Assembly: GCA_947561395.2 (NCBI GenBank)
Contig: OX387184.1
Coordinates: 7,688,001-7,752,000 of the forward strand
Reading direction: 5' to 3'
DNA from: Buxus sempervirens
Lineage: Eukaryota > Streptophyta > Magnoliopsida > Buxales > Buxaceae
DNA: 64,000 nucleotides
Under the pieces are notes generated by a model, which searched no databases, was not told where the DNA came from, and was given only the letters and a program-made list of their open reading frames with translations. Positions within the stretch are counted from its first letter, which is position 1. Every line of letters starts with the position of its first letter. Of the stretch, positions 22,663 through 47,170 are shown one piece after another. The position numbers were made by a program, and so were the translations under genes.

Positions 22663-22860
22663 TTGAAGTACGGGCGAGGCATGCCCGTACTTCAACTACG
22701 GGCAAGCTTCTAGAAGAGGACGCGTGGCGGGACACGCGTCCCGTACGGAAGAATCTGCGATAATTGCAAATATTCGTTTTTCGCCCGTATTTGAATTACG
22801 GGCAAGGCACGCCCGTACTTAAAGTACGGGCAAGGCATGCCCGTAGTTCAAATACGGGCA
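22663..22860. repeat. Cluster of 21-bp CCCGTA...TACGGG palindromes in A's U3
   Basis: At least four short inverted repeats occur: near 22681-22701, at about 22782-22802, at 22811-22831 (gcccgtactt-a-aagtacgggc, nearly perfect) and at about 22839-22859. They are joined by aaggcatg or aaggcacg spacers and lie 15-200 bp upstream of the TATA box. The same array is in the 3' LTR (about 32,144-32,341). Confidence 0.85.
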
Positions 22861-24588: not shown

Positions 24589-26410
24589 CTCTCAGCCCAA
24601 TTGGACCTTGGTTAGGAAATGAGTCAACATAGGGGGATATGAGCAAATTTAGGAAGTACTTTGTGTCCAACCTTAGTGAGGTATGGAACTCTTGCAATTA
24701 CGTGATATTGGGGGATCCTGTCAAACGGACATGATAATCGCCTAAGGTAAGTGGTTTTTAACAGGGACCAATGTGACCCGCCCACTTACCTGGGGATCCA
24801 CCCAGACATCGTATTGCATGTTGTTCTGTACTCTCACTATAAAAGTGACATTAAGGAACCCTTTATCAGCTCATCATCCGAGAATCACCCAAATAGACAC
24901 AGCACTTTGCTCCACTGCACACACAAGCACTTCACTACACCGTGAATGATCTTTTAACTGCATGGGGTGACATGCACGAGGGGGTCTGCATGAATGATCC
25001 ACTTTGAATGATTTGATGAAATGCTGCTCTTCTCCACCAAAACCTAGATCTTTCTAGCAGCCACCTTTCTCAAACGATGAACTTACTTTTGGGATGGTAT
25101 TAGCTCTACGCTCCCGTGGCTTGCCGGGGAAAGCAGGGTAAACCCATCTCCCCAGGTTTCTGGATTCCTTAGCGCCACTGGCTTCATGCTGTGGTACGCG
25201 AGGGTCTAGTACTTGGCTCAGACCCTTGCAGACAAATGTCTCGGGCTGGGTACCCTTTCCCCACCTATTGTTTCTGATAAACCAAGGCTTTGTGAATGCA
25301 GCATGGATATGGATGTGGATGTGAATACTGGAAAATAAAATCAATTTAAAATCCAAGAGTCCATCAGGGGCAGTCCCCCATTCTTTTGCATTAAATTGAG
25401 TAAACCCTAGATCTTGGGCTGCCTTAGCCCTAATTTAGGAAACCAACCAAATTTTGATCAGGGGAACCACCCCAGATCCAAGCATTGAGTCCCGTGAACC
25501 ATGGGCCTTAACCCATTGAGTCCGCAGGGAGCACTCTGAGTCCAGGACGGCCTTCTGAGCAGATGAAAGCCGGCCAGATCAAAAAATCAGATAGAAACAG
25601 GCCAGATCAGAGCAGGGGCAAAACCCTAGATCTAGGAATTTAGCCTACCTGCATTGAAGTAAATTTGTACCCTTCTTCTGGGTTCCCAAAAGCCCTTAAG
25701 ATGAAATTTTGCAGATTTTGATTATCATGTAATTTTCGCCCTTGATTGGCAAATTGTTAAATCTTTTGGTCTGACACCTGAAAGCAAAGGCAGATGAAAG
25801 AACAGACAAAAGAAGGCTGATCTGGACTCAGATGTGCTTCCATGTCTAGAAGTCGTGCCTCGAGGGGCACCAACCTTTTTAGGACTATGCACACACTTTT
25901 TAATTATTCAAAATGATAATGTTGGTTCTAATTTTGGGTACGCATCTTCATACATCAAGTGCACACACTTCAAGATCATCTACATAAGCATGCCTGATTA
26001 ACTCATTTCAAAAAACAAAAACAAAAACAAAAAAAAAAAAGAAAGAAAATTTTCAAAAATTTGAATTGCCTCTAAGTGTACATTAAATTTGCCTTAGGGT
26101 AAAAAAAAAATGGTTTCAATCCCCTGTGCTTAAACCAAGTTTCAATTGGCTGTGAAACAGCCCAACAAAAAAAAAACAAAAAAAAAAAAAAAGTCAAGGA
26201 AAAAGTCTGATTTTTGCCGATGGCCATCGGACCAAAAAAAAGAGAGTCAGCCAATTGGGAAATCAACTCCTGCAGTTTCCCAGATCCTGATGAAAATCAA
26301 TACTTTGTGTTCCTACCATCCTAAACCCCTTATCATTCTTTGGAATTCTCCAAACTGATCCATTTCCAAAATCAAAATCAGCTCCTGTGGTTTCCAAACC
26401 CAGAGATTAT
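24589..26410 (+). other. Leader of element A, non-coding
   Basis: Colinear with B's leader at several words (cggacatgataatcgcctaa, cctagatctttctagcagcc, gatggtattagc, ggggaaccaccccagatcca, cccattgagtccg). The order is conserved but only modestly similar between. No ORF1 is present. A-rich runs lie at about 26,010-26,050 and 26,160-26,195. Confidence 0.7.
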
Positions 26411-27125
26411 TTCCTTACCTCCGAAGTGGCGGTCAACCTCCGAAGTGGCGGTTGAGGGAAATCATTCTCAGAAATCTTCTTTCCTTACCTCCGGAGTGGC
26501 GGTCAACCTCCGAAGTGGCGGTTGAGGGAAACCATTTTCAGAAATCTTCTTTCCTTACCTCCGAAGTGGCGGTCAACCTCCGAAGTGGCGGTTGAGGGAA
26601 ACCATTTTCAAAAATCTCCTTTCCTTACCTCCGAAGTGGCGGTCAACCTCCGAAGTGGCGGTTGAAGGAAATCATTCTCAGAAATCTCCTTTCCTTACCT
26701 CCGAAGTGGCGGTCAACCTCCGAAGTGGCGGTTGAAGGAAACCTTTTCCAAGGATTATTTCCTTACCTCCGAAGTGGCGGTCAACCTCCGAAGTGGCGGT
26801 TGAAGGAAATAATTTCCAAGGATCTTCTCTCCCATTACCTCCGAAGTGGCAGTTAAAAGGGATCTTTCCTCCGAAGTGGAGGCTAACCTCCGAAGTAGTA
26901 GTCATTTTCCTTACCTCCGAAGTGGCGGTCAACCTCCGAAGTGGCGGTTGAAGGAAATCATTCTCAAAAATCTTCTTTCCTTACCTCCGAAGTGGCGGTC
27001 AACCTCCGAAGTGGCGGTTGAAGGAAATCATTTTCTTAATTCTTCTTTCCTTACCTCCGAAGTGGCGGTAAAAAGGAGATTATTCTCAGGGACTCTCCCC
27101 TTGTCTCCAAATAGCGGCTAAAAAG
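26411..27125 (+). repeat. 70-bp minisatellite upstream of A's gag, about ten copies
   Basis: Units start with ttccttacctccgaagtggc at 26411, 26481, 26551, 26621, 26691, 26759, then diverged units near 26831 and 26907, then 26977 and 27047, and fade out by about 27125. Each unit holds two copies of cctccgaagtggcgg, which folds as a short stem around gaagt with one mismatch. One variant (cctccgaagtggagg, about 26868) pairs perfectly. In element B this region is occupied by ORF1 and a different hairpin array. Confidence 0.95.
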
Positions 27126-27368
27126 AGATCAAATTATCCTCCTTGGTTGTTGAATAAAAGTTTCAAAACGAAAAAGAAAAAAAATCACCAATTAAGTGAA
27201 AATCAATCAAATCAAAAAGTCATGAATAATCTGCATTGGCATGCATCAACCAGCATTATGTTTTGATATAATATGAATTCTATATACTAATTATGTCTTT
27301 TTGTTGAAAAAGGTACCAAAATTGCGTATCGCAGCCCGTACCTCCTACGTTCAAGAAGAAAACTCCAA

Positions 27369-31554: not shown

Positions 31555-33454
31555 TGTTAGCACCTGATTTTTGCACCTCCAAAAATGCAGAAAATGAAAT
31601 TTCAATTAAAAAGTCAAACCCTGAGGGGCCTGAAAATTGACTTTTTGATCCAAAGAAAATTGGCCATCAAACTTCCTTTCATTGAAAAGAGCATTTCGAC
31701 ACGGTTCTAACACAACTGAGTTTGCCAGAATCGGGGTCCGGATGAGGAAGTTGTGAGTTGGTCAAACTTTTGGGGAAGCGAAAGTTGACTTTTTGCTCGA
31801 CCCCAATTCAGCTGCCAAACTTAATCCCAGTGGATAGTGTGTTCCGAGCTGATTCCAACGACACCAAATTTGTTGAAATCGGACATCGGACGGAAAAGTT
31901 ATGGGCAGTTGAAATTTCAAAGAAAGCTGCCCACGTGGCAAAACAGCAGCAAAAAGCAGAATAAATGAGTTAAATAAATCAAACAATCATTTAATAAACA
32001 TATCTTTATTTTTTAATAATATTTTAATAAAAGAATCTCGTTTTTATAATAAAATAATCAAAAAATCGGATAAAAATCTTTAAATAAACCAAATTTAATA
32101 AAGCATTTGAAATCCAGCATTTTAAAAACGTGCTGGACCGTATTTGAAGTACGGGCGAGGCATGCCCGTACTTCAACTACGGGCAAGCTTCTAGAAGAGG
32201 ACGCGTGGCGGGACACGCGTCCCGTACGGAAGAATCTGCGATAATTGCAAATATTCGTTTTTCGCCCGTATTTGAATTACGGGCAAGGCACGCCCGTACT
32301 TAAAGTACGGGCAAGGCATGCCCGTAGTTCAAATACGGGCAATAAAATTTTGCCTATAAATAGAGAGGCCACCCCCCTCATTTGAAGAAGCCAGCCCCCT
32401 TAGCTGCTCCCCCTCTCCTTCCTTGGCATTTTTACGCCCAAGCCCTGCCTCTGCTCTGTCAACATCTATCCCAATGACCAAAATGCCCCTGTGCTGCCCA
32501 AAACTTGCCTAAATCTTGCTTTTTCACCCTTTTAGCATAGGAAACCCAGGGAACCCCTGTTCAAACCAATCCGAGAAATCCAACGGAGGTGCGGAAGCGC
32601 TACCGAAATCATTCGGAAGAACTAACACGCATCAAGAATAGTCCAAAGGTTACACTGTAAGCATCTTTACAGTTTTAAGTAAATTTTAACTACTTTTGGC
32701 TATCTCCTAAAATTCTTATCTGTTTTGTTTTTATTATGTCACTTCTAACATCTTCTTTGATTGCTGTACATCACAAGAAATCCATTCCCAAGTGATCATT
32801 TCCATGGTTAAGGAAAAGAGGATGATGATGGATTATCAAAGACGCTTTTAAGCAAGCTAATTAATCTATTTCATTTGCAGTCATGGAAAGAGTTTTGGAA
32901 ACATGTGAATGCCTCTAATTCCCTGTAATTTCCCTCCCCCTTCCTTCTTGGCAATGGTCACGGATGGCTACAAAAGCAATATGCCTTTATGAACATAAAA
33001 AAAAGGAAGAAGGACTTCAAATGGAGTAAATGCACTATAACAAAGATGCTGGAAACTTCAACCAAGGAAGTCGGACATCCCAAGAAGACCATGGAGTTGA
33101 TCCCAAGCGAAGTCGGAGCAAAACGGCGAAATTGAGCAAAGACCGTATACACAGAGCGGTCCGGGTGTGCCCGTAATTAATCCACGGGCTGGCTTGAACC
33201 GTGTTAAAATTACGGTTCAGCCCAGACCGTGAATTAAATACGGTCCAAACTGTAAATAACTTAAAAAATTAATTTTTCGGACCCGGTTGGACCCAATCCG
33301 ACCCATTTAAACTTGATCCGACTAATTGGGCTTTTTGGACTTTTCCAAGCCCATTTTGAGACTGTGGGCTTAAGTGGGCCCACCAAGGCTTCTTGGGCCT
33401 TCCAATGGGGCCCATAGCCTGTCTGCCCAACCAAGGCCCATTTTGATAAATGGG
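31555..33454 (+). repeat. 3' LTR of element A, left piece
   Basis: 1,900 bp colinear without gaps with 22074-23973. It ends with atggg (33450-33454), the target duplication of element B. The remaining 603 bp resume at 51236. Confidence 0.97.
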
Positions 33455-35509: not shown

Positions 35510-36908
35510 CGACCTAACCCGGTTTGATTAGTTGGATTATAATGGGTTTATTCTTTGCACATGTGCACACACTTGCACATACACGCACACTCTTTTTGTA
35601 CATATGCACACACTTGCACAAATGGGTCAAGGAAGATTTGCCTCCTTATTTAGTAAGTGTTGAATATACACAATAACATATTCTGGGGAGTTCTGTCATA
35701 AAGGACGAGATAATTGCCTAAGGAAATTGGTTTTTAAGTGGGACCACTGTGACCCCTCCAATTACCTGGGAACTCTCCCGGAACATTGTTTTGTGTACCA
35801 ATTCATCACTTTACTATATGAGACAGTGAAAATTCCTTCCCATGCACACATGTGCACTCACGCACACTGTGGTTTCTTTACATGCTTTGATATAAATTGT
35901 GTGGGGTGACACGCGCGAGGGAGCCCGTGTGGGTGATCCGATTGAATGATTACCTAAACCTAGATCTCTCTAGCAGCCACCCTTCTTTATCGTATAAACA
36001 AATTTTGGGATGGTATTAGCCTCACGCGCCCTTGGCTTGCCAGGGAAAGCGAGGTAAAACATCCCCCCAGGTATCTGGATTCCTATAGCGCCACTGGTTT
36101 CTTGCCGTGGTATGCGAGGGTCTAATACTTGGCTCAGACCCTTGTAGGCATTTGTCTCGGGCTGGGTACCCTTTTCCCACCTAATGCTCTGATACACCCT
36201 ACTATGTGAATGTGAATGTGAATGTGAATGTGAATGATGAATGAAGTCTAAAACCCATGAGTCCATCAGGGGCAACAACCCTTGCCTCTTTTTGTATCAA
36301 ATTGAGTAGACCCTAGATTCTGGGCTACCTCAGCCCTAAATTAGGGAGCTTACCTAAACTTTGATCAGGGGAACCACCCCAGATCCATGCATTGAGTCCG
36401 GAGAGCCGTGGGCCTCGACCCATTGAGTCCGTGGGAAGTATCTTGAGTCCGGATCAGTCTTTAAGCAGATGAAAGCAGGCCAGATCAGAACAAAGAAATT
36501 TGAACCCTAGATTTAGGCTTTTTTTTTTTATTTTTAACCTACCCTTTTTGAATCAAATGTATCCTTTCTTAGAGTTCTCAACAACCCTAAGATTGCATTA
36601 TTTTTTTTTTTAGCTTTTTGAACATCATGTAATTTTCGCCCTAGCTGGCAAGTTGTAAGTTTAACATTAGCGGATGAAAGAGCAGATGAAAGGATAAGGC
36701 TGGTCAGGACTTAGGTGTGCTTCCTTACACAAGTATGTCTAGGAGTCATGCCTTGACAGGCACCAACCCTTAGGATCACACACTTTGTGTGCATGGTTTC
36801 TTTTCTTGTTTAGAGACATGAAATATGGTGATGTCCCGTTCTTTTTTTTACTTGCTTTGATTTTACTGTTCATTACACTAATAGAGAACTTTCACGTTGA
36901 AATCCAAA
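35510..36908 (+). other. Leader of element B
   Basis: Long non-coding leader between PBS and ORF1. It includes the segment shared with the hAT (35,691-35,830), blocks shared with A's leader, and a short gtgaat repeat (36207-36238). T-rich runs lie at about 36,520 and 36,600. Confidence 0.7.
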
Positions 36909-38372
36909 ATGACTTGGAACACTAATTGGATAGTACAGTACATGGCATCGTCTTCGTCTTCTGAGAAAACCAAGTTCCCTAGGATAGAGAAGTGTGCCTG
37001 GGATACTCCTTGGATCCGATCTTGGACACGGCAGCTCCAGGGGGATGAGCAAATTAAGTGGGAGGCACAATACCACATGAGGCAAACCTTATCCCTATTG
37101 AATGTGCCAATCAATTGGAACATGATTCAGTCATCCTTGTTATTCTGGGATCCTCAATTTTCAGTTTTCCGATTTGGGACTATAGAGTTGACACCCACAA
37201 TTGAGGAGTTAGAATTACTCCTCAGGTTTCGTGATCGTGGAGAACCCGCCAGGCCAAACCTCAAAGACAGTTACAAGAATGAAGCTTGTACTTTCTTTGG
37301 CCTCTCGAGGGAAGAATTCCAGACTTTAGGAGGTGACAAATCATTCACGAGGGTCTCCAAGAAATTCCTCGCAGAAAAGATAAGGAACAAAAAGCAGGAA
37401 AGACCCCGTGTTTGGTTGGACACCTTCACCCTTGTGGTTCTGTCACAAATTTTTTTTCCAACTGGGGGAGACACCATTAATTTGGCCCTCATGGAAATTG
37501 TGGATCAACTCTCGGTTGGATACCGGATCATGCCACTGATACTTGTTCAACTCTATCATGCCTTAACCTTGTCCAAGAATGGAACCAGAAGGTTTCAAGG
37601 GTGCGCTCCCCTTCTTCATATATGGCTGAAAGACCATCTGATGGTGGCAGAACCCATTAGTGACAGATATGGGCTAGTCCGTGACAACGTCACATACATG
37701 GCCCGAAGAGAAATACATCCAGACTTACCTACTAGAGAGGAGTGGCTGAACTACTTTCTACACCTAGATGAGGATGTTGATATCAGGTGGTGGGGAACCT
37801 TCCATTTCACTTATACCCCCATTTTAGCCTTCAGAGATAGGAGATGCCTGGCCTTAATTGGCCTCACACATGCTGTACCGTACTATCCAATAAGAGTTTT
37901 GAGACAGTTTGGGAAACCGCAGGGAATTCCCCTTGAGGATGATGCGACTAATCTGACAGGCCCGCTTTCGAAGGAGTTGAGGAAACAGTTACTGATAGAG
38001 TGGAAGACTGTGCGCAAGCACGAGCATGATATATTCTCGAAACATAATATTCGAGAATATAAGCAAAAAATGGCTAGGGATTTTGGCCATGACGGCGTCC
38101 CACCTCTCCAGACTGGCATACCCAAGGACATTCCGGTTCCGCCCCCTGATATCTATGGAGATAGGGTGGCCGAACTGCAGGAGGCACACTCCCGTATCCA
38201 TTTAACCTACATTGAATCGGAGCGGGAGAGTAGGCAGGCCAATGAGGCCCTCCAGCATCAATTGAGTGGCGTGCGCAAGCACGCAGATGAGGACAGGCGT
38301 TTGCGGAATAAACTTCTGCGCGCCCTTAGGAGGCAGGATGTGTCCTCCTCTTATGATGACCCACCTAGTTAG
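36909..38372 (+). CDS. Ogre ORF1 protein (DUF7745-like)
   Basis: An intact 487-aa frame starting MTWNTNWIVQYMASS. An internal ATG at 36942 (MASSSS) is the other candidate start. It lies between the leader and gag, the place of the extra ORF1 that defines Ogre elements. Sequence features: an aromatic-rich globular body (WDPQFSVFRFGTIELTPTIE, then YGLVRDNVTYMARREIHPDL), which I place by recall with the DUF7745/plant-mobile-domain-like proteins found in such elements and in scattered host genes. A charged, likely coiled-coil C-terminus begins at about residue 420 (AELQEAHSRIHLTYIESERE). The function of ORF1 is unknown. Element A has no counterpart. No enzymatic motif is visible. Confidence 0.85.
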   Translation: MTWNTNWIVQYMASSSSSEKTKFPRIEKCAWDTPWIRSWTRQLQGDEQIKWEAQYHMRQTLSLLNVPINWNMIQSSLLFWDPQFSVFRFGTIELTPTIEELELLLRFRDRGEPARPNLKDSYKNEACTFFGLSREEFQTLGGDKSFTRVSKKFLAEKIRNKKQERPRVWLDTFTLVVLSQIFFPTGGDTINLALMEIVDQLSVGYRIMPLILVQLYHALTLSKNGTRRFQGCAPLLHIWLKDHLMVAEPISDRYGLVRDNVTYMARREIHPDLPTREEWLNYFLHLDEDVDIRWWGTFHFTYTPILAFRDRRCLALIGLTHAVPYYPIRVLRQFGKPQGIPLEDDATNLTGPLSKELRKQLLIEWKTVRKHEHDIFSKHNIREYKQKMARDFGHDGVPPLQTGIPKDIPVPPPDIYGDRVAELQEAHSRIHLTYIESERESRQANEALQHQLSGVRKHADEDRRLRNKLLRALRRQDVSSSYDDPPS

Positions 38373-38834
38373 ACATTGGCTAGGATGCTTTCGTTTTTGG
38401 ACCTAACTTTGATGTATTTTGAGCCATGTTTGTTTTTTTTGTGATATAATTTATGCATATGTTTTTATTTCAGTTTAATGCTTTAATTTTAATTTTGAAT
38501 GGAAATGAAGAAACAGAAATTAGTTTGCAGATGCTTGTTGTAAAGTTAATATTGCCTTTTGGTCCTAAGTGACTCTCTCTCTTTCCAGTTATACAAAATC
38601 ATGATTTCTGGTCATATTAGATCCCTTCCTTCAAATCCTACTCCTTAATTATCCTAATATTAATACTTATAGGCGTTTCTTAAAGCGCTCATGGATTGAA
38701 CTCAGATCACACCCGAATGCATTATTTACAAGATCACTCGGTTTTTGCCCTGGATCCAACGATCCAAATTGGTGGCGTTTGAAGGTGGCCCCATCAAGAC
38801 CAACCCTTCAAATGAGCCCGGAGGCGGCTATTTT

Positions 38835-39061
38835 TTAGCCCTTCCCCTATGGAGACATAAGTCCAAAAATGGTGGTGCCTGGTGACCGATTCTTAAATCG
38901 GAGACCAACTGGGTGAACCCGGGTATTTGCTTTCTAGCTTACCCCCTATGGAGACATAAGTCCAAAAATTGTGGCACTTGGCGACCGATTCTTAAATCGG
39001 AGACCAGCTGGGTGAGCCCGGGTGTTGTTTTTAGCTCACCCCCTGCGGAGACATAAGTCCA
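38835..39061 (+). repeat. 98-bp tandem repeat with a perfect hairpin in each unit
   Basis: The word ggagacataagtccaa starts at about 38851, 38950 and 39047 (spacings 99 and 97). Each full unit contains ccgattcttaaatcgg, a perfect 6-bp stem with a 4-base loop (38886-38901 and 38985-39000), then ctgggtgaacccgggt. Confidence 0.9.
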
Positions 39062-39119
39062 ATCCCGTGATATTTGAGTTCAATTCATTATAAGCAAGCT
39101 CCGGTTCATTAGGGCATGA

Positions 39120-39515
39120 GCCAAGAGGTTCTCTTTCCTTGTCGTAAGCGACTAAAATAGATCAAATTCTTTAGGTTCTCTTTCCTTGCTGACTTGACGC
39201 AGCTAAAACAGATCAATACCTTGGGTTCTCTTTCCCAGTCGTCCACCAGACGACTAAAACAGACCACTAGACATTGGGTTCTCTCTCCCAGTTGCCTTTG
39301 TGCAACTAAAATAGATCACTACCTTGGGTTCTCTTTCCTAGTTGTCCATAGACGACTAAGACAGACCAGTAGACATAGGGTTTTCTCTCCCAGTTGTCTT
39401 TGCGCAGCTAAAATAGATCATTTCTTTAGGTTTTCTCTCCCAATTGCCTTTGTGCAACTAAAAATGATACATTTTTATAGATTCCCCCTAAGTTGTTTCC
39501 ACACAGCTAAATCAA
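39120..39515 (+). repeat. 50-bp tandem array of covarying mini-hairpins, eight units
   Basis: Consensus: gggttctctttccc, then a stem-loop, then taaaatagatcactacctt. Stem pairs in order are gtcg/cgac, gctg/cagc, agtcgtc/gacgact, agttgc/gcaact, agttgtc/gacgact (one G:T), agttg/cagct (one G:T), a variant of agttgc/gcaact with one mismatch, and agttgt/acagct (one G:T). Loops vary freely. Units differ mostly in ways that keep pairing. It sits directly upstream of gag. Confidence 0.88.
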
Positions 39516-39544
39516 ATCACAAATTTTGATCTCGATTGACCATG

Positions 39545-39578
<34 letters not shown>

Positions 39579-39700
39579 ATAAAAATATGTATATATGATT
39601 AATTGCCAAAGAAATGCACTAACTTCTGCAAAATGATCAACAGGTATCCAAAATTGCTCCAAGAAGCCCATACAATCTTCGATCTCGCAAAAGACTGGAT

Positions 39701-42700
39701 ATGGATGCACAAGGAAATCAGACTCCGCCAGCTCAGTACCAAGCGGAATCTAGTGAAACCCAAGTGGTTAATGACCTAACCCAAAAAGTCGAAAACATGG
39801 CTATGGTTATTCAGTCCCTCATGGCAGAGATCAGGGATCTGAAACAAGTTCAATCAACTGTTCCGATCACTCAACAGCACCAACCACCACTCCCACCACG
39901 GGCAGAAGTGCCAGCAGTACTGCTTCCACCACAACCAGCACAACCTCTACCTATGGCACCGCCACATCCGCCACCGCAAGCTGTTCCATTCCCACCTCCT
40001 GTGGTAGATCTTGTCCACCCGATACAGCAGCAAGAACAATTCGCGCCTGTCCAACTGGGGCAGGATGAAGAAGACTGGTATAGAACGCAAGAAGCTCAAT
40101 TCGAGACCCGTCTGGCGGCCATGAAGGAAGATCTTTTAAAGCAGCTACAGCCAAACACTGTTCAGAGTGAGGCTACTCTGGAAAACCTTTGTTTTTTCTC
40201 AGATATACAACTCCCTACCAAGTTCAAATGTCCTGAGTTGCACCAGTTTAATGGAACTGGTTGTCCGCTAAACCACTTAAGGTCGTATTCAGGCGACATG
40301 TGCCAATACGCAAAAAATGAGAAAATCATGGTACAGTTCTTTCAGCGGTCTTTAACTGGGGCTGCTTATTCTTGGTTTTTGAGCTTAGACAAAGCCAAGA
40401 TAAAGACTTGGAATGACCTCGCTGCGGTGTTCATTCAGCAATATCGTTTGAACAGCCAGATGGTTCAAACAAGGGCAGAGCTGCAAAGGCTAGCAAAGAA
40501 GAGTCATGAGTCAGTTCGGGACTATGCTAAAAGATGGAAAGAGCTGGCAACACTAGTCCAGCCACCACTGTTAGAGCAAGAGATGACATCTTTGTTTATA
40601 GCATCACTTGGTCAACCTTTCTTCACTCTGTTACTGGGGCAGAGTTCTACAAGTTTTAATGACTTGATTCTAACAGCTGACAGAATTGAAGATGCAGTAA
40701 GGTCAGGGAAGATAGATAGCAGTGGACAGAATGCTACTCAGAGGAGACCAATGGCAAATCAGGGTAATAGAAGCCAGGGACAAGAGCAACCAAGGAGAAC
40801 TGAGGGGCAGGCAGTGAATTATGTACAGCCTACTCAACCTTATCACATTTCGCGAACAGCTCCACAGAATCAAGGGCAAGTGGCCGTACCATATCAGGGT
40901 CCACCGAGACGGACAAGAGAAGAAATGGAGGCAAGGTTTAAAAGAGTATTCACTCCACTTCCCTACACACCAGCTGAGTTATTACCCACACTACTGAAAG
41001 GAGGGTATTTGCGAATCAAGTCACCAAATCCTAGAACATTCATTGGCAAGAATTACAATCCTAATGAGAGATGTGAGTACCACTCAGGGGCACCAGGACA
41101 TGACACCAACCGATGTTGGGATCTGAGGCATGATATCCAAGACTTGATTGATCAGAAACGCCTTACAGTCGATCCTCCGGCACCGCCTCCAGTAACTCCA
41201 GCCACTGGTGTTGCAACCAACCCTTTGCCTAGTCATTCTCAAGCATCTACTAGTAAGACCGTCAATCATATAAGCACCAGTTGCAACACAATGCAATTTG
41301 ATCCATCAATTTTGATTGGACATCTCGGACAGACAGTGAGGGTTAACCTCCAAGCAGAAATTGAATGGCAAGAAGTAAATGTCATCGGAGGAGAAGATAG
41401 AACAGAATTCCCTCCACAATTCCCTCGAGTGCATCTACACCCCAATTCAGAATCTGAGTATCTTCTCCCATCACCCATTGATGATCCCACACCATCTAGC
41501 TATATCACGCCACCAGCTTATATCCCTACCAAAGCACCACTGATCAACCTCTTCTCTCTCAGGAACCCAGTAATACCTAACCCTACCATCATCCCAGTTG
41601 AGCCAGAAAGCCTGAATCTTTCCCAACTCACCTTAGATCCCCCATCATACCACACCGCTCCACTTGCCTATACCATTGATCCCGCTTTTTATGAACTTCC
41701 CCGCCTTTTTACTGAAACTGAAGTCAACCGGATCACCCGATCGGGTCGATATGTGAACACAGACCCTACACCTGCACCCGAGGAAGAGACAGAAGAAGAT
41801 AAAAGAAAGAAGGAGAAAGGGAAGGAAGTGGCAGTCGAGCAGTCATTTACCCAAAAGAGAAAGGGACGAGCATCTGATGATGAGATCACGGAATTGTATA
41901 ACAGCATACACGTGCCTGACTATGACATTGTTCAACAGTTGAACAAGGTCCCTGCACAGATCTCTATCATGCGACTACTCATGGACTCCCCAAAGCACAA
42001 GGATGTTTTAATGAAAGTTTTATCTGATGCCCATGTGCCGGAAACAACTGCACCTGAACAGTTGGAAGCTATAGTCTCTCAGATAATGGCACCAAAGGCT
42101 ATCTCCTTCTCAGATGATGATTTACCTCCTGATGGCCCTGATCATATCGAACCTCTTTACATCATGGTCAAATGCAATGACAAGGTAGTAAAAAGGGCAA
42201 TGATTGACAATGGCTCCGCTTTGAACATTTGCCCAATGAGGACTTTTTATGGATTGCAGCTTGACTCTTCCTTGATCAAGCCTAGTACACATAATGTCAG
42301 AGGTTTTGATAATGCCAAAAGAGATTCTGTTGGAGAGATTGTTATGACGATCATCATAGTAGAGAAGCCGTTTACCCTAGCCTTTGAACTGATGGATCTG
42401 AATTCCTCTTTCAACTTGTTGATTGGCCGACCTTGGCTTCATCATGCTGGGGCAGTACCCTCCACTCTTCATAGAATGATCCGATTCATTTCTGGCAATG
42501 AGTTAATCACGGTACATGCTGAGGACCACAGGGAATTTGAAAGACTAGGTGTTCCCTATGTTGATTATGAGTTGCCAACATCCTTGGCATTCCATGCTAC
42601 AGAACTAGTTAATGTGATTAATATCCCAGCATATGAAAGGGGAAGAAAATTCAAGAGAAGGAAGAGAGAATGCATGTTCGGAACTGTTGAATGTGCCGAC

Positions 42701-45367
42701 TGGGGACTTCGTGCAGGAGAAGGTCTGGGCCGTTACAAGCAAGGAATGAAGAAGGCCATTGAAGTGGCAGAAAAAATCACTGGATTTGGAGTTGGTTACA
42801 CCCCAGGACCACATGACTGTGCAAAACTTTTTAGGCGTCAGTCAGAGTTGAGGAGGGCAAAGGCAGAAGGCAGAGAACCAGAATGGCCTATTTACTTCTA
42901 TGAAGAGTTGTACAGAACATTTACTAATGACCGTTTGAAGGCACTCTGGTCCCTTGAGAATGTAGTTGCCCAAGGATGGGGTGATGACTTTCCACCTTCC
43001 CCAAAGAAAGATGAAGATAATCTGGAAGGAATAGCACAGATGTTTTGGAATGAATCAACTATCATGAATAAGCCAATTGCTGAATCCCCCACCGTGAACT
43101 TGCAGGACCCATTTGTTGACTGGTCCTCTTCAGACTTGATCAAGCTGCCAGAGCTAGGCCCAAAAGAAACATCTGCTGATGCTTTTCAACCGCTTGCTAT
43201 GCCATTTGAAGCTAAAGAACCACCCACTTTTCCTGCCATAGGTCTGGACACTCTGTTCACTAATGAGAGGGATCCTGAAATGCACATTTTCATGGTTGAG
43301 AAGAATCAAGAGAAAAAGAATGATGCAACAGTTGAGGAAGAAGCTTCAGCACCAATCAAGAATTGGAGCTCCATGCCTTTTGCAGTCAGCCGGGCTGACC
43401 TTTTTAAGGGAGTTTTTGATACTTCTTCTGACATTTCTGTTGTAACTGATTCTAAATTATTCAATGAGTACCTGACTGAGTTCTACTACTTGCATGTGTC
43501 TGATAGTAATAATAAATCTGAATCCAGTAATCTTAGTATCAATCTCGATGCAAACCCGGGCAAGCCGGAACTCGAGATAGATAATGAGACAAAAGTAATT
43601 GAACAAAAAGAAGAAGAAATAACAAGCCTTGGCTTTGAAAAACAAACTGAGCAGGCAAACTTAATAACAGAAAAACATGATCAAATATTAGATGTCGAGC
43701 ATGAAAAAGATCTTAATAGGTCAGATTGGAGCATAAGCTCACTGCAGAATAATGATTTAGACGTCATCTCTGATATAGACCAAGATAGGTCTTTAGAATA
43801 TGAGGACGACTATGAACCATTGGAGACCCCACCTGAAATCCAATCTGCTTTGGAAAGACATGAAAGGGGTCTCCAGGCCAACATTGAGGAAACTGAACCC
43901 ATTGATATAGGTGAACCAACACAACCCAAGATAGTTCAAATTGGTAAAAAGCTGTCTCAAACATTGAAGTTGCAAATAACTGAATTTTTAAAATCATATT
44001 CTGACGTGTTTGCTTGGTCGTACGAGGATATGCCCGGGTTAGATACGGACTTGGTTGTACATCGGTTACCCACAAAGTCTGAGGCCACTCCAGTGAAACA
44101 AAAACTCAGACGCATGAAGCCAGAATGGGCTCTGAAGATCAAAGAAGAGGTTACCAAACAGTTGAATGCAGGGTTCTTGCAAGTAACGGAATATCCTGAA
44201 TGGTTAGCTAACATTGTGCCAGTACCAAAGAAGGATGGAAAGGTCAGAATGTGTATTGACTATAGAGATTTGAACAAGGCAAGCCCAAAGGATGACTTCC
44301 CATTACCCCATATTGATGTTCTAGTGGATAACACTGCAACGCATTCAATGTTTTCATTTATGGATGGATTTTCTGGTTACAACCAGATAAGGATGGCATC
44401 AGAAGATATGGAAAAGACATCCTTTATCACACACTGGGGCACGTACTGCTACCAAGTGATGCCATTCGGACTAAAGAATGCAGGTGCAACCTATCAAAGG
44501 GCAATGACTCTGTTATTTCATGACATGATACACAAAGAAATGGAGGTGTATGTGGATGACATGATAGCAAAGTCAAAAGAATCAGAAAATCATCTAATAA
44601 ACCTTGGAAAAGTCTTTGATAGGCTCAGAAAGTTCAAGCTCAGAATCAATCCAAGCAAATGTGTGTTCGGAGTTACATCTGGAAAACTACTCGGTTTTAT
44701 TGTTGGAAAGCGGGGAATTGAAGTTGACCCTATCAAAGCAAAGGCAATTCTAGAAATGCCTCCACCATCAACAGAGAAGGAAGTAAGAGGGTTTCTTGGC
44801 AGGTTGCAATACATCAGTCGGTTCATTGCACAGATGACTCCCATATGTGAGCCAATATTTAAATTGCTGAGAAAAGATAACCCAGTGGTCTGGAATGAAG
44901 ATTGCCAAGAAGCTTTTGACAAAATCAAGATATATCTCATGAATCCGCCGACACTGATACCACCGGTGCCTGGGCGACCTTTGATCATGTACTTGACAGT
45001 CTCAGAAACAGCTATAGGATGTGTTCTAGGACAACACGATGAAACAGGAAGAAAAGAACAAGCAATCTACTACTTGAGTAAGAAATTCACTAATTATGAG
45101 TCGAAATATTCAGTGCTTGAAAAAACGTGTTGTGCCTTAGTCTGGGCAGCTCAAAAGCTTCGGCATTATTTGCTCAGTCATACAGTTCTGCTAATATCAA
45201 ATTTGGATCCGTTAAGATATATTTTTGAGAAGCCAATCTCAACTGGAAGGGTAGCAAGGTGGCAAGTCCTTTTATCTGAGTATGATATTGTCTATACGAC
45301 AAGGAAAGCGATAAAAGGACAAGCAGTAGCAGATCATTTGGCAGCACATCCTCTCCCAGATTACTAG
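39701..45367 (+). CDS. gag-pol: Gag-protease-reverse transcriptase-RNase H polyprotein of element B
   Basis: 1,888 codons in one frame, ending at TAG. Gag core is about residues 170-335, followed by the C458-H461-H467-C472 knuckle. A retropepsin-type protease site is at D836-N-G (MIDNGSALNICPM); DNG replaces the usual DSG/DTG, common in this lineage. A G-patch-like segment (GEGLGRYKQG, about 1006-1015), an acidic Ser/Glu-rich spacer (about 1250-1400) and reverse transcriptase follow. RT motifs include PVPKKDGKVRMCIDYRDLNK and the catalytic YVDD at 1617-1620. The RNase H (about 1720-1840) reads YLTVSETAIGCVL where active Ty3 enzymes have a catalytic Asp, so it is probably a non-catalytic tether, as described for dual-RNase-H Tat elements. 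No Ogre-style intron is needed. Confidence 0.95.
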   Translation: MDAQGNQTPPAQYQAESSETQVVNDLTQKVENMAMVIQSLMAEIRDLKQVQSTVPITQQHQPPLPPRAEVPAVLLPPQPAQPLPMAPPHPPPQAVPFPPPVVDLVHPIQQQEQFAPVQLGQDEEDWYRTQEAQFETRLAAMKEDLLKQLQPNTVQSEATLENLCFFSDIQLPTKFKCPELHQFNGTGCPLNHLRSYSGDMCQYAKNEKIMVQFFQRSLTGAAYSWFLSLDKAKIKTWNDLAAVFIQQYRLNSQMVQTRAELQRLAKKSHESVRDYAKRWKELATLVQPPLLEQEMTSLFIASLGQPFFTLLLGQSSTSFNDLILTADRIEDAVRSGKIDSSGQNATQRRPMANQGNRSQGQEQPRRTEGQAVNYVQPTQPYHISRTAPQNQGQVAVPYQGPPRRTREEMEARFKRVFTPLPYTPAELLPTLLKGGYLRIKSPNPRTFIGKNYNPNERCEYHSGAPGHDTNRCWDLRHDIQDLIDQKRLTVDPPAPPPVTPATGVATNPLPSHSQASTSKTVNHISTSCNTMQFDPSILIGHLGQTVRVNLQAEIEWQEVNVIGGEDRTEFPPQFPRVHLHPNSESEYLLPSPIDDPTPSSYITPPAYIPTKAPLINLFSLRNPVIPNPTIIPVEPESLNLSQLTLDPPSYHTAPLAYTIDPAFYELPRLFTETEVNRITRSGRYVNTDPTPAPEEETEEDKRKKEKGKEVAVEQSFTQKRKGRASDDEITELYNSIHVPDYDIVQQLNKVPAQISIMRLLMDSPKHKDVLMKVLSDAHVPETTAPEQLEAIVSQIMAPKAISFSDDDLPPDGPDHIEPLYIMVKCNDKVVKRAMIDNGSALNICPMRTFYGLQLDSSLIKPSTHNVRGFDNAKRDSVGEIVMTIIIVEKPFTLAFELMDLNSSFNLLIGRPWLHHAGAVPSTLHRMIRFISGNELITVHAEDHREFERLGVPYVDYELPTSLAFHATELVNVINIPAYERGRKFKRRKRECMFGTVECADWGLRAGEGLGRYKQGMKKAIEVAEKITGFGVGYTPGPHDCAKLFRRQSELRRAKAEGREPEWPIYFYEELYRTFTNDRLKALWSLENVVAQGWGDDFPPSPKKDEDNLEGIAQMFWNESTIMNKPIAESPTVNLQDPFVDWSSSDLIKLPELGPKETSADAFQPLAMPFEAKEPPTFPAIGLDTLFTNERDPEMHIFMVEKNQEKKNDATVEEEASAPIKNWSSMPFAVSRADLFKGVFDTSSDISVVTDSKLFNEYLTEFYYLHVSDSNNKSESSNLSINLDANPGKPELEIDNETKVIEQKEEEITSLGFEKQTEQANLITEKHDQILDVEHEKDLNRSDWSISSLQNNDLDVISDIDQDRSLEYEDDYEPLETPPEIQSALERHERGLQANIEETEPIDIGEPTQPKIVQIGKKLSQTLKLQITEFLKSYSDVFAWSYEDMPGLDTDLVVHRLPTKSEATPVKQKLRRMKPEWALKIKEEVTKQLNAGFLQVTEYPEWLANIVPVPKKDGKVRMCIDYRDLNKASPKDDFPLPHIDVLVDNTATHSMFSFMDGFSGYNQIRMASEDMEKTSFITHWGTYCYQVMPFGLKNAGATYQRAMTLLFHDMIHKEMEVYVDDMIAKSKESENHLINLGKVFDRLRKFKLRINPSKCVFGVTSGKLLGFIVGKRGIEVDPIKAKAILEMPPPSTEKEVRGFLGRLQYISRFIAQMTPICEPIFKLLRKDNPVVWNEDCQEAFDKIKIYLMNPPTLIPPVPGRPLIMYLTVSETAIGCVLGQHDETGRKEQAIYYLSKKFTNYESKYSVLEKTCCALVWAAQKLRHYLLSHTVLLISNLDPLRYIFEKPISTGRVARWQVLLSEYDIVYTTRKAIKGQAVADHLAAHPLPDY

Positions 45368-47170
45368 CCACTTCTGACTCACTTCCCAGATGAAGATGTG
45401 ATGTGTACGGAGTCGACGGAAGAAATGGATGAAACTAAGTGGAGAATGTTTTTTGATGGAGCGGTAAATGTTAATGGAAAGGGAATTGGGGCAGTGTTAG
45501 TCTCCCCAGATGGTGTTCATCACCCAGTAGCAGCAAAACTTCTATTTGACTGCACCAACAATATGGCGGAATACGAAGCGTGTGCGTTGGGTTTGCGAGC
45601 AGCAATCGAAATGCACATACAAAAGTTGGAGGTATTCGGAGACTCAAGTCTTATCATTTATCAAGTAATGGGAGATTGGAGGACCAGGGATGTAAAACTA
45701 GTGCCGTACCAAGAATTGATCAAAGAATTAGAGGAGCAGATTGAGAAAGTGACATTCAATTATATGCCACGAGACAATAATCAGTTCGCTGATGCCTTGG
45801 CAACTCTCGCCTCCATGGCAACTATCACAGACAATGCATTTGTGCAACCTCTAGAGATTGAAGTTCGCCATCTACCAGTTTACTGTTTTAGCATCGAGAG
45901 GAGTAAACCAGAGGATGAGCCGTGGTATGCAGACATTGAGAGGTATCTAAAGGACAGAACTTTGCCAGAAAGTGCCACGGCTGCAGAGAAGCGAACAATA
46001 CAGAGGCTCGCAGGACAGTATTTTCTCAGCGGAGGCAGAGTATATAAGAAGTCATTCAATGACTCACTGCTACTGTGTGTGAAAGAAGAAGAAGCACGAA
46101 ACTTGATCAATGAAGTGCACGGAGGTTTGTGCGGTGCACACATGAATGGCCACATGCTTGCAAGAAAGATCCTAAGGATGGGTTACTATTGGATGACGAT
46201 GGAAACAGATTGCTACACCCATGTCAGGAGATGCCACTTGTGCCAGATTTATGCAGACAACATCTATGCACCGCCAAACACACTGTACTCCATGGCGTCA
46301 CCTTGGCCATTTGCAATATGGGGAATTGATATGATAGGACAGATTCATCCGAAAGCTTCTAATGGACACAGATTCATCTTGGTTGCCATTGATTATTTTA
46401 CGAAGTGGGTAGAAGCCATGTCTTTTGTGGATGTGAAGAAGTCTCATGTGTTGAAGTTCATCAGAAACAACATCGTTTGCCGTTATGGCGTGCCAGAGGC
46501 TATCATCACTGATAATGCAAAGAATTTGAACAATAAAGACATGGACAAGATGTGTGAAGATCTAAGGATCAGACATTTGAATTCTACAGCTTACCGACCT
46601 AAGATGAATGGAGCAGTAGAGGCCGCTAACAAGAATCTGAAGAAGATACTGGAGAAAATGGCGGTTACCTACAGAGATTGGCATGAGAAGTTGCCTTATG
46701 CGCTGCACGCGTATCGAACATCAATCAGGACTTCAACTGGGGCAACTCCCTTCTCCCTTGTGTATGGAATGGAAGCTGTTCTCCCTATTGAAGTACAGAT
46801 TCCTTCACTAAGAATTCTGAAGGAAGCCGAGATAAACGATATTGAATGGGAACAATCCAGATTTGACCAACTTCAGCTGTTGGATGAGAAAAGGATAAAG
46901 GCATTATGCCATAGCCAACTCTATCAGCAGAGAGTGGCACGAGCCTATAATAAGAAAGTCAAGCCACGTCATTTCAAGGTGGGAGATCTAGTACTCAAAA
47001 GGATCTTTCCCCACCAAGAGGACAATAGAGGAAAATTCAAGCCAAATTACGAAGGACCATTCGTAGTTCATAAGGTTTTGTCCAGGGGAGCATTGATCTT
47101 ACAAGAGATGGACGGAGCCATTTTTCCTGAGCCAATAAATGCAGATGCAGTCAAGTTGTACTATGCTTGA
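45368..47170 (+). CDS. pol (3' part): Archaeal-type RNase H plus integrase of element B, downstream of TAG
   Basis: It stays in the same frame as the upstream polyprotein after TAG 45365-45367; the first in-frame ATG is 45401. A second RNase H has all four acidic residues: D at 45455 (FFDGAVN), E at 45569 (MAEYEA), D at 45641 (FGDSS) and D at 45791 (FADALA). This is the archaeal/plant-type RNase H gained by the Tat clade. Integrase follows with an HHCC finger (EVHGGLCGAH ... CHLCQ), catalytic D at 46328, D at 46511 and E at 46619 (D-D35-E), and a C-terminal DNA-binding part (PRHFKVGDLVLKRIFP). It ends YYA-stop. Without the TAG this would be one continuous pol. Translation in this copy needs readthrough or reinitiation, so the copy may be inactive. 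Confidence 0.93.
   Translation, partial: PLLTHFPDEDVMCTESTEEMDETKWRMFFDGAVNVNGKGIGAVLVSPDGVHHPVAAKLLFDCTNNMAEYEACALGLRAAIEMHIQKLEVFGDSSLIIYQVMGDWRTRDVKLVPYQELIKELEEQIEKVTFNYMPRDNNQFADALATLASMATITDNAFVQPLEIEVRHLPVYCFSIERSKPEDEPWYADIERYLKDRTLPESATAAEKRTIQRLAGQYFLSGGRVYKKSFNDSLLLCVKEEEARNLINEVHGGLCGAHMNGHMLARKILRMGYYWMTMETDCYTHVRRCHLCQIYADNIYAPPNTLYSMASPWPFAIWGIDMIGQIHPKASNGHRFILVAIDYFTKWVEAMSFVDVKKSHVLKFIRNNIVCRYGVPEAIITDNAKNLNNKDMDKMCEDLRIRHLNSTAYRPKMNGAVEAANKNLKKILEKMAVTYRDWHEKLPYALHAYRTSIRTSTGATPFSLVYGMEAVLPIEVQIPSLRILKEAEINDIEWEQSRFDQLQLLDEKRIKALCHSQLYQQRVARAYNKKVKPRHFKVGDLVLKRIFPHQEDNRGKFKPNYEGPFVVHKVLSRGALILQEMDGAIFPEPINADAVKLYYA

Follow-up and report, generated by a model that had tools for sequence, protein, structure and literature searches.

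A tandem array of covarying hairpins upstream of gag in an Ogre-like retrotransposon of Buxus sempervirens, a candidate structured RNA element

In retroviruses, the packaging signal (psi) is located between the splice donor and gag, and is present only in unspliced RNA. How plant LTR retrotransposons select their genomic RNA for packaging is, to our knowledge, little understood. Tandem short hairpins with single-stranded linkers that gather protein occur in animal long noncoding RNAs, as the Xist A-repeat and the roX stem-loops. In retroelements, the RNA transport elements of IAP and MusD are structured export signals in full-length transcripts (PMC12786077), and BARE makes a spliced gag RNA (PMC3735527). 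Ogre/Tat elements carry tandem repeats in their 3' untranslated region, with a variable copy number (PMC7004042, PMC3305785).

Here, we describe a hairpin array in an LTR retrotransposon, element B, located in a window of 64,000 nucleotides of the Buxus sempervirens genome (contig OX387184.1, positions 7,688,001 to 7,752,000). Like the Ogre/Tat 3' repeats, as outlined in the sources above, the array is tandem, variable in copy number and carried by the same element lineage. However, those repeats are located 3' of pol, have no constant sequence or length, and are a source of satellites, whereas the element B array precedes gag, follows one unit plan and covaries. The likeness to psi is that the hairpins stand just 5' of gag, in a stretch that is arguably intronic and would be present in unspliced RNA only; the array differs from it in being a long tandem of one module with variable loops and only putative binding by Gag, with no splice donor identified. 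Tandem short hairpins with single-stranded linkers are shared with the Xist A-repeat and roX, although these belong to animal long noncoding RNAs and the likeness is one of description. This also holds for the IAP and MusD elements, which have structured RNA in full-length retroelement transcripts in common with element B, but are not described as repeats of one short hairpin in the accessible sections of PMC12786077. As in BARE, splicing would split the retrotransposon RNA into pools, but in element B the 3' splice site would coincide with the gag start, and the gag-pol of sibling copies is one frame by length. The accessible sections of the same 2025 review name no packaging signal of this kind, and a search of the full-text literature by title and opening of the abstract, with subscription journals mostly outside it, gave no description of a covarying hairpin array before gag. 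The family retains many well-preserved copies, and its array is a well-delimited RNA element with evolutionary support.

Element B is a Tat-lineage, Ogre-like LTR retrotransposon. Its repeat copies, taken as LTRs, are spaced 15,743 bp, and the leader contains a PBS-like TGGCGACTCTGCTGGGGACC. Matches to the plant mobile domain (PMD) and DUF7745 lie in 36897-38369, and the ATG position of this ORF1 is also found in four subfamily copies. Retrotrans_gag was matched in 39701-41500, the first ATG of gag being at 39701, and RVT_3, followed by Integrase_H2C2 and rve, in 45398-47170 of the polyprotein. The gag capsid together with an RNase H-like domain before the integrase places the element in the Tat lineage, and an extra ORF with a plant mobile domain upstream of gag is an Ogre feature, reported for 57% of Ogre elements (PMC6317226). 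Ogre elements are also described as having two polyprotein ORFs with an intron-like gap of ~274 bp between them (PMC6317226), whereas many siblings of element B have a single frame of 2512-2515 aa from gag, as judged by length and reading through stops inside the 240-aa gag match; therefore, we call element B Ogre-like only. The window frame 39623-47170 has the same length and reaches the integrase match.

Table 1. Coordinates of the array, the hairpins and the neighboring features in the window.
Feature	Position	Strand	Remarks
Element A hairpin array, 70-nt units	26410..27074	+	Unrelated to the array of element B, same place before gag; -18.7 to -20.5 kcal/mol per complete unit
Element A single unit	27090..27131	+	Similar to the terminal unit of element B; weak match (E 0.63), judged by eye
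ORF1 with plant mobile domain / DUF7745	36942..38372	+	
Element B array, eight ~50-nt units	39127..39515	+	TTCTCTYTCC, 5-7 bp stem with variable loop, CTAAAAYAGATC
Stem-loop unit 1	39140..39153	+	GTCG/CGAC; unit start 39127
Stem-loop unit 2	39187..39204	+	GCTG/CAGC; G.G mismatch in 17/40 copies; unit start 39174
Stem-loop unit 3	39237..39255	+	AGTCGTC/GACGACT; unit start 39224
Stem-loop unit 4	39290..39307	+	AGTTGC/GCAACT; unit start 39277
Stem-loop unit 5	39340..39357	+	AGTTGTC/GACGACT, one T.G; unit start 39327
Stem-loop unit 6	39392..39409	+	AGTTGT/GCAGCT, two T.G; unit start 39379
Stem-loop unit 7	39442..39459	+	AATTGC/GCAACT, one A.C; unit start 39429
Stem-loop unit 8 (divergent, terminal)	39491..39508	+	AGTTGT/ACAGCT; unit start 39480
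Branch-point-like CTAAC (putative function)	39619..39623	+	CTAAY in 22/22 sampled subfamily sequences, and in element A
AG of putative 3' splice site	39642..39643	+	CAG|GTATCC
Conserved coding stretch VSKIAPRSPYNLRSRKRLD	39644..39700	+	From AG|GT to first gag ATG; synonymous-looking changes between subfamilies and element A
gag and next part of polyprotein frame (Retrotrans_gag)	39701..45367	+	

The array lies between ORF1 and gag of element B and is detected by Tandem Repeats Finder. In each of its eight units an inverted repeat is found at the same place, with G.T wobbles (Table 1). The original prediction of eight 50-bp units between ORF1 and gag was thus correct in coordinates and stems, and its observation that the stem letters change from unit to unit with pairing kept was confirmed, also for units from the whole genome. 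Pairing in the window copy is imperfect, with an outermost T.T in units 1 and 2, an A.C in unit 7, and an A.G in unit 2. A covariance model, R1, matched 8 of 8 window units with E-values of 3e-13 to 1.6e-5, R1 having been built from an alignment (A1, see below) that includes one window unit and close relatives of it. An Rfam scan of 38380-39720 yielded three matches, all far below the gathering scores and none over the array. Just 3' of ORF1, GACTCTCTCTCTTTCCAG at 38571-38588 resembles another 3' splice site, a 99-bp tandem repeat with CCGATTCTTAAATCGG hairpins is located at 38844-39062, just 5' of the array, and the 3' end of the array adjoins an A-run (39547-39585), the length of which varies among similar copies.

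The search for sibling copies covered the 676 Mb genome containing the window. At the DNA level, the best 40 of 1295 candidates were scored, and all 40, window included, were 93-100% identical; four further short matches at 71-72% were extra units of the same copies. A search with a 240-aa gag piece, of which the best 150 of 9344 candidates were used, extended down to 82% identity. The regions fetched comprised the 39 DNA-search siblings and the upstream parts of 100 gag-search places (139 in total), and array-like sequence was present in 91 of these 100 (E 1e-3), in some with the array end only. The eight units of the window served to build a sequence-only profile, which matched 1257 units; 1242 of them passed a flanking-column requirement. 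These units were distributed over 131 of 140 sequences, with 1 to 23 in each and most commonly 8 or 10, counts that can be low since the fetched stretch of 1.7 kb may clip long arrays. The location before gag is retained across subfamilies. In the diverged ones the stems are rewritten to AGTTGC/GCAACT, AGTCGC/GCGACT, AGTTAC/GTAGCT, AGCCAC/GTGGCT, AACC/GGTT, AGCC/GGCT or AACTATC/GATAGTT (one of the parsings behind this list read 137 of 145 units), with the flanks TTCTCTYTCC and CTAAAAYAGATC unchanged. Column by column, 16 of the 21 flank positions carry at least 1.5 bits, the stem 0.65-1.81 and the loop 0.06-1.17 bits, and the pyrimidine tract and CUAAA are among the best-conserved parts of the unit. 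Some broken pairs are found at the level of a subfamily: besides the G.G of unit 2, these are an A.C in unit 7 (14/40 copies) and a C.A in unit 8 (35/40). In two copies (L121:763-1354 and L144:848-1329), two unit types alternate and form a higher-order repeat.

Covariation was measured in alignment A1, which consists of 101 units, one per distinct core present in at least two loci, selected with a stricter flank filter but no pairing filter, and which excludes 132 further cores, each seen once in diverged loci. RNAalifold, run without a given structure, recovered the same stem, with both-sided changes in all five of the pairs it predicted. For the 7-pair stem, 83.6% of the cells were paired compared to 77.0 +/- 0.7% after shuffling (0 of 500 shuffles as high), and 96 cells were changed on both sides compared to 46 +/- 6 (0 of 500). 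Both-sided changes occurred in 7 pairs versus 5.2 in shuffles (13 of 500 reached this), there were 14 further pair types versus 12.4 (23 of 500), and the covariation score was 0.412 versus 0.286, with the caveat that kin sequences can exceed a shuffle null even without structure. When the 3' arm was slid by 1-3 columns, pairing fell to 12-43%. For the five inner pairs, we also compared the data to simulations that preserve the tree of the units and the number of events in each column, 1000 in each of four settings. The number of both-changed cells was 86 compared to simulated means of 21-50 (reached in 0, 2, 46 and 7 per 1000), canonical pairing was 92.0% compared to 67-79% (5, 28, 0 and 0 per 1000), and the covariation score was 0.575 compared to 0.30-0.34 (2, 1, 4 and 1 per 1000), whereas for the number of pair types the tree null gave similar values (reached in 205-709 of 1000). 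Thus, covariation beyond the repeat phylogeny, which had been set as the test, was found on three of four measures. A pair-blind mutual-information test, with a similar tree null and 200 unit clusters, gave no significant column pair, either in the stem or elsewhere; this test took in decayed units and ignored which letters pair, and in view of its negative outcome we used pair-aware measures afterwards. The both-sided changes are transitions, compatible with G.U intermediates, and since units spread by duplication, the independent events are fewer than the cells. Comparison of the units shows that a hairpin of 5-7 bp is kept in each by two-sided and G.U-tolerated changes, with the loop free to vary.

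Mutations seen in a single copy were assumed to be mostly younger than the insertion, and those shared by several copies to have passed through transposition. Among the 37 closest copies, left after dropping three near-identical ones, stem variants kept pairing in 13 of 23 shared cases compared to 5 of 24 private ones. Counted over the whole set as single steps from the commoner core, pairing was kept in 26 of 43 shared versus 40 of 107 private cases (Fisher p 0.008), and the difference held with a threshold of 3 (15/22 versus 34/90, p 0.010) or 4 (9/12 versus 31/82, p 0.017). Since inherited mutations spare the pairing more often than private ones do, decayed retrotransposon copies can be used as a built-in neutral control for RNA structure. 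Where the gag-pol frame measures at least 2500 aa, 94.3% of 936 inner stem cells pair (20 loci, 198 units), compared to 88.9% of 1142 cells in copies with at least two stops in the gag piece (233 units, from the 24 of 31 decayed loci that have units; p 1e-5). Three of the 20 long-frame loci carry a stop in the gag piece (L062, L128 and L130), and without them the value is 93.8% of 763 cells (17 loci, 163 units; p 2e-4 versus decayed). Routinely broken stems in sibling copies, which would speak against a kept structure, were looked for in this way and not encountered, although single subfamilies do fix single broken pairs. In diverged long-frame copies 95.4% of the cells are paired (8 loci, 87 units), or 94.4% when stop carriers are omitted (6 loci, 62 units). 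Copies with one stop and a shorter frame, which belong to neither group, have 91.8% of 809 cells paired.

The balance of G.T and A.C also informs on the strand, since the two would be equal by DNA symmetry alone. At the lineage level the stems contain 46 G.U and 20 A.C, compared to 31 and 34 among private steps from Watson-Crick pairs (p 0.008). Diverged long-frame copies have 67 G.U versus 10 A.C, or 46 versus 8 without stop carriers. Shared C>T and G>A changes, counted per site without the same three near-identical copies, are similar in the upstream flank (0.278 and 0.266), and uneven in some small regions (0.100 and 0.250 in the gag start, 0.184 and 0.129 in the non-stem part of the array). 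Folding energy failed to separate the strands (sense -4.73, antisense -4.59 kcal/mol). As G.U exceeds A.C, and only at the lineage level, the asymmetry favors selection on the sense-strand RNA.

Between the array and the gag ATG, a branch-point-like CTAAY sits 20-23 nt 5' of an exon-like start, and the array is found about 60-150 nt upstream of this site and of AG|GT. The AG|GT was present in 20 of 22 sampled sequences, the exceptions being L059 (AG|CT) and L118 (AA|GT), and its phase varies between subfamilies. The peptide read from AG|GT is conserved, VSKIAPRSPYNLRSRKRLDM in the window and TKIAFRSPYLLRSRKRLEM, VPKIAFRSPYLLRSRRRLDM or TKIAYRSPYLLRSRRKLQM elsewhere, with, by eye, many synonymous-looking changes, and an ATG is first reached at its end; the search expression for this peptide fitted 113 of 141 sequences, element A included, and missed 28. 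Because gag coding is conserved from AG|GT before the first ATG, gag may start on an exon further 5', which would make the array intronic. The leader candidates examined supplied neither a 5' splice site nor a first exon. One candidate exon, ATGGGTCAAGG at about 35624, was absent from three other aligned leaders, and another, ATGGTATTAGCC with GGTAAA at about 36054, gave, by eye, the correct reading frame in only two of the four subfamilies. A search for spliced retrocopies with two junction patterns and up to 3 mismatches found no place, and when 13 array-poor copies were compared to the window, 9 aligned at the gag end and none began at the exon start 39644.

A second retrotransposon in the window, element A, has a gag that is 48% identical to that of element B, and in both, gag coding seems to begin at AG|GT, before the first ATG. 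Pyrimidine tracts precede the hairpins of its array too. Its copies were judged by eye to be too alike for a covariation test of that array. No ORF of at least 150 aa is present between its first repeat copy (22071) and gag, where a decayed ORF1 could still exist. Tandem repeats of 28 bp with the palindrome GCCCGTACTTAAAATACGGGC are located at 22782-22860 and 32263-32342, one set in each copy of a repeat spaced 9,481 bp, which is presumably the LTR of element A.

We tentatively favor a reading in which the array is a structured sense-strand RNA element that marks unspliced genomic RNA for Gag binding, packaging and/or export; the conserved RNA hairpins near gag are as expected of a retroviral-type packaging signal. 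In RNA, the conserved flanks are the pyrimidine tract and CUAAAAYAGAUC, and the stem would clamp the two into one binding module. A row of such modules, mostly 5-23, could then bind a protein multivalently, for which Gag of the element itself and a host protein that recognizes pyrimidine tracts are the candidates. With a branch-point-like site and AG|GT between the array and gag coding, the array would be spliced out of the gag mRNA and retained only in the genomic RNA, which would thereby be marked for packaging and/or export. The broader proposal, that the array is a cis-acting packaging or export signal in an intron of the gag mRNA and that in element A an unrelated array arose at the corresponding position to serve the same purpose, is possible but rather doubtful.

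The main rival, which we rank second after packaging or export and regard as unlikely, is splicing control. The array would then act within the intron, close to the gag 3' splice site, as a silencer or decoy region, and the tracts UUCUCUYUCCC beside the hairpins would recruit PTB-like or U2AF-like factors that determine how much RNA stays unspliced relative to spliced. This would agree with the high conservation of tract and CUAAA in every unit, with the short distance to the branch-point-like site and AG|GT, and with the tracts in element A. However, the AG after the tract is kept in only 64 of 101 units (24 have TG, 7 AA and 6 GG), which does not fit plain 3' splice sites, and a row of tandem 3' splice sites was therefore rejected, and the leader candidates and junction patterns tried yielded no splice donor. 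It is more improbable that the hairpins and tracts act in translation, as an internal entry or shunt element for gag downstream of ORF1. The position of the array between the two frames fits such a role, but the array of element A, in the corresponding position, is not preceded by any ORF of at least 150 aa (barring a decayed ORF1), and gag seems to start at AG|GT before any ATG, for which reasons the role loses ground. Moreover, ACCATGG just 3' of the array, considered as gag start or exon, is not conserved; its position reads ACG in L123, L126 and L128, and is missing in L130, L132 and L144. The original prediction had named translation of gag among the roles for which the array might be under selection as RNA; this suggestion has weakened, whereas selection for RNA structure itself is supported by the shuffles, the tree null, the contrasts between private and shared mutations and between better-preserved and decayed copies, and the excess of G.U over A.C. 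Its other two suggestions, packaging and splicing control, stay as candidates, to which we add export of the unspliced RNA.

The remaining explanations are less credible still. Palindromic repeats might be kept symmetrical, without any RNA function, when reverse transcriptase slips or switches template (quasi-palindrome correction). In its favor, Tat/Ogre elements often carry tandem repeats, as far as the sources cited above describe them, alternating unit types occur and the both-sided changes are transitions. Yet such correction would not lead to more G.U than A.C on the sense strand, let alone at the lineage level only, and the flanks outside the palindrome are more conserved than the palindrome itself; we consider it highly improbable, slightly ahead of the next two. 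Both strands fold alike, as would suit palindromes acting in DNA, as sites for a DNA-binding protein or as cruciforms, but a DNA-binding site would fix the half-site letters, which vary freely, and G.U is tolerated more than A.C, making this very improbable. The same very low probability applies to hairpins acting as small-RNA traps or transcript stability elements: the hairpins are real by comparison, but the conserved flanks would be left unexplained, and Dicer needs stems longer than 5-7 bp.

Two observations concern the leader of element B. In one copy, L113, the fetched stretch has no ORF1 and no array, but the leader and the 99-bp repeats are retained. The leader block 35895-36210, between PBS and ORF1, is non-coding by eye and strongly conserved in the window and three diverged subfamily copies, and is another candidate cis-acting region.
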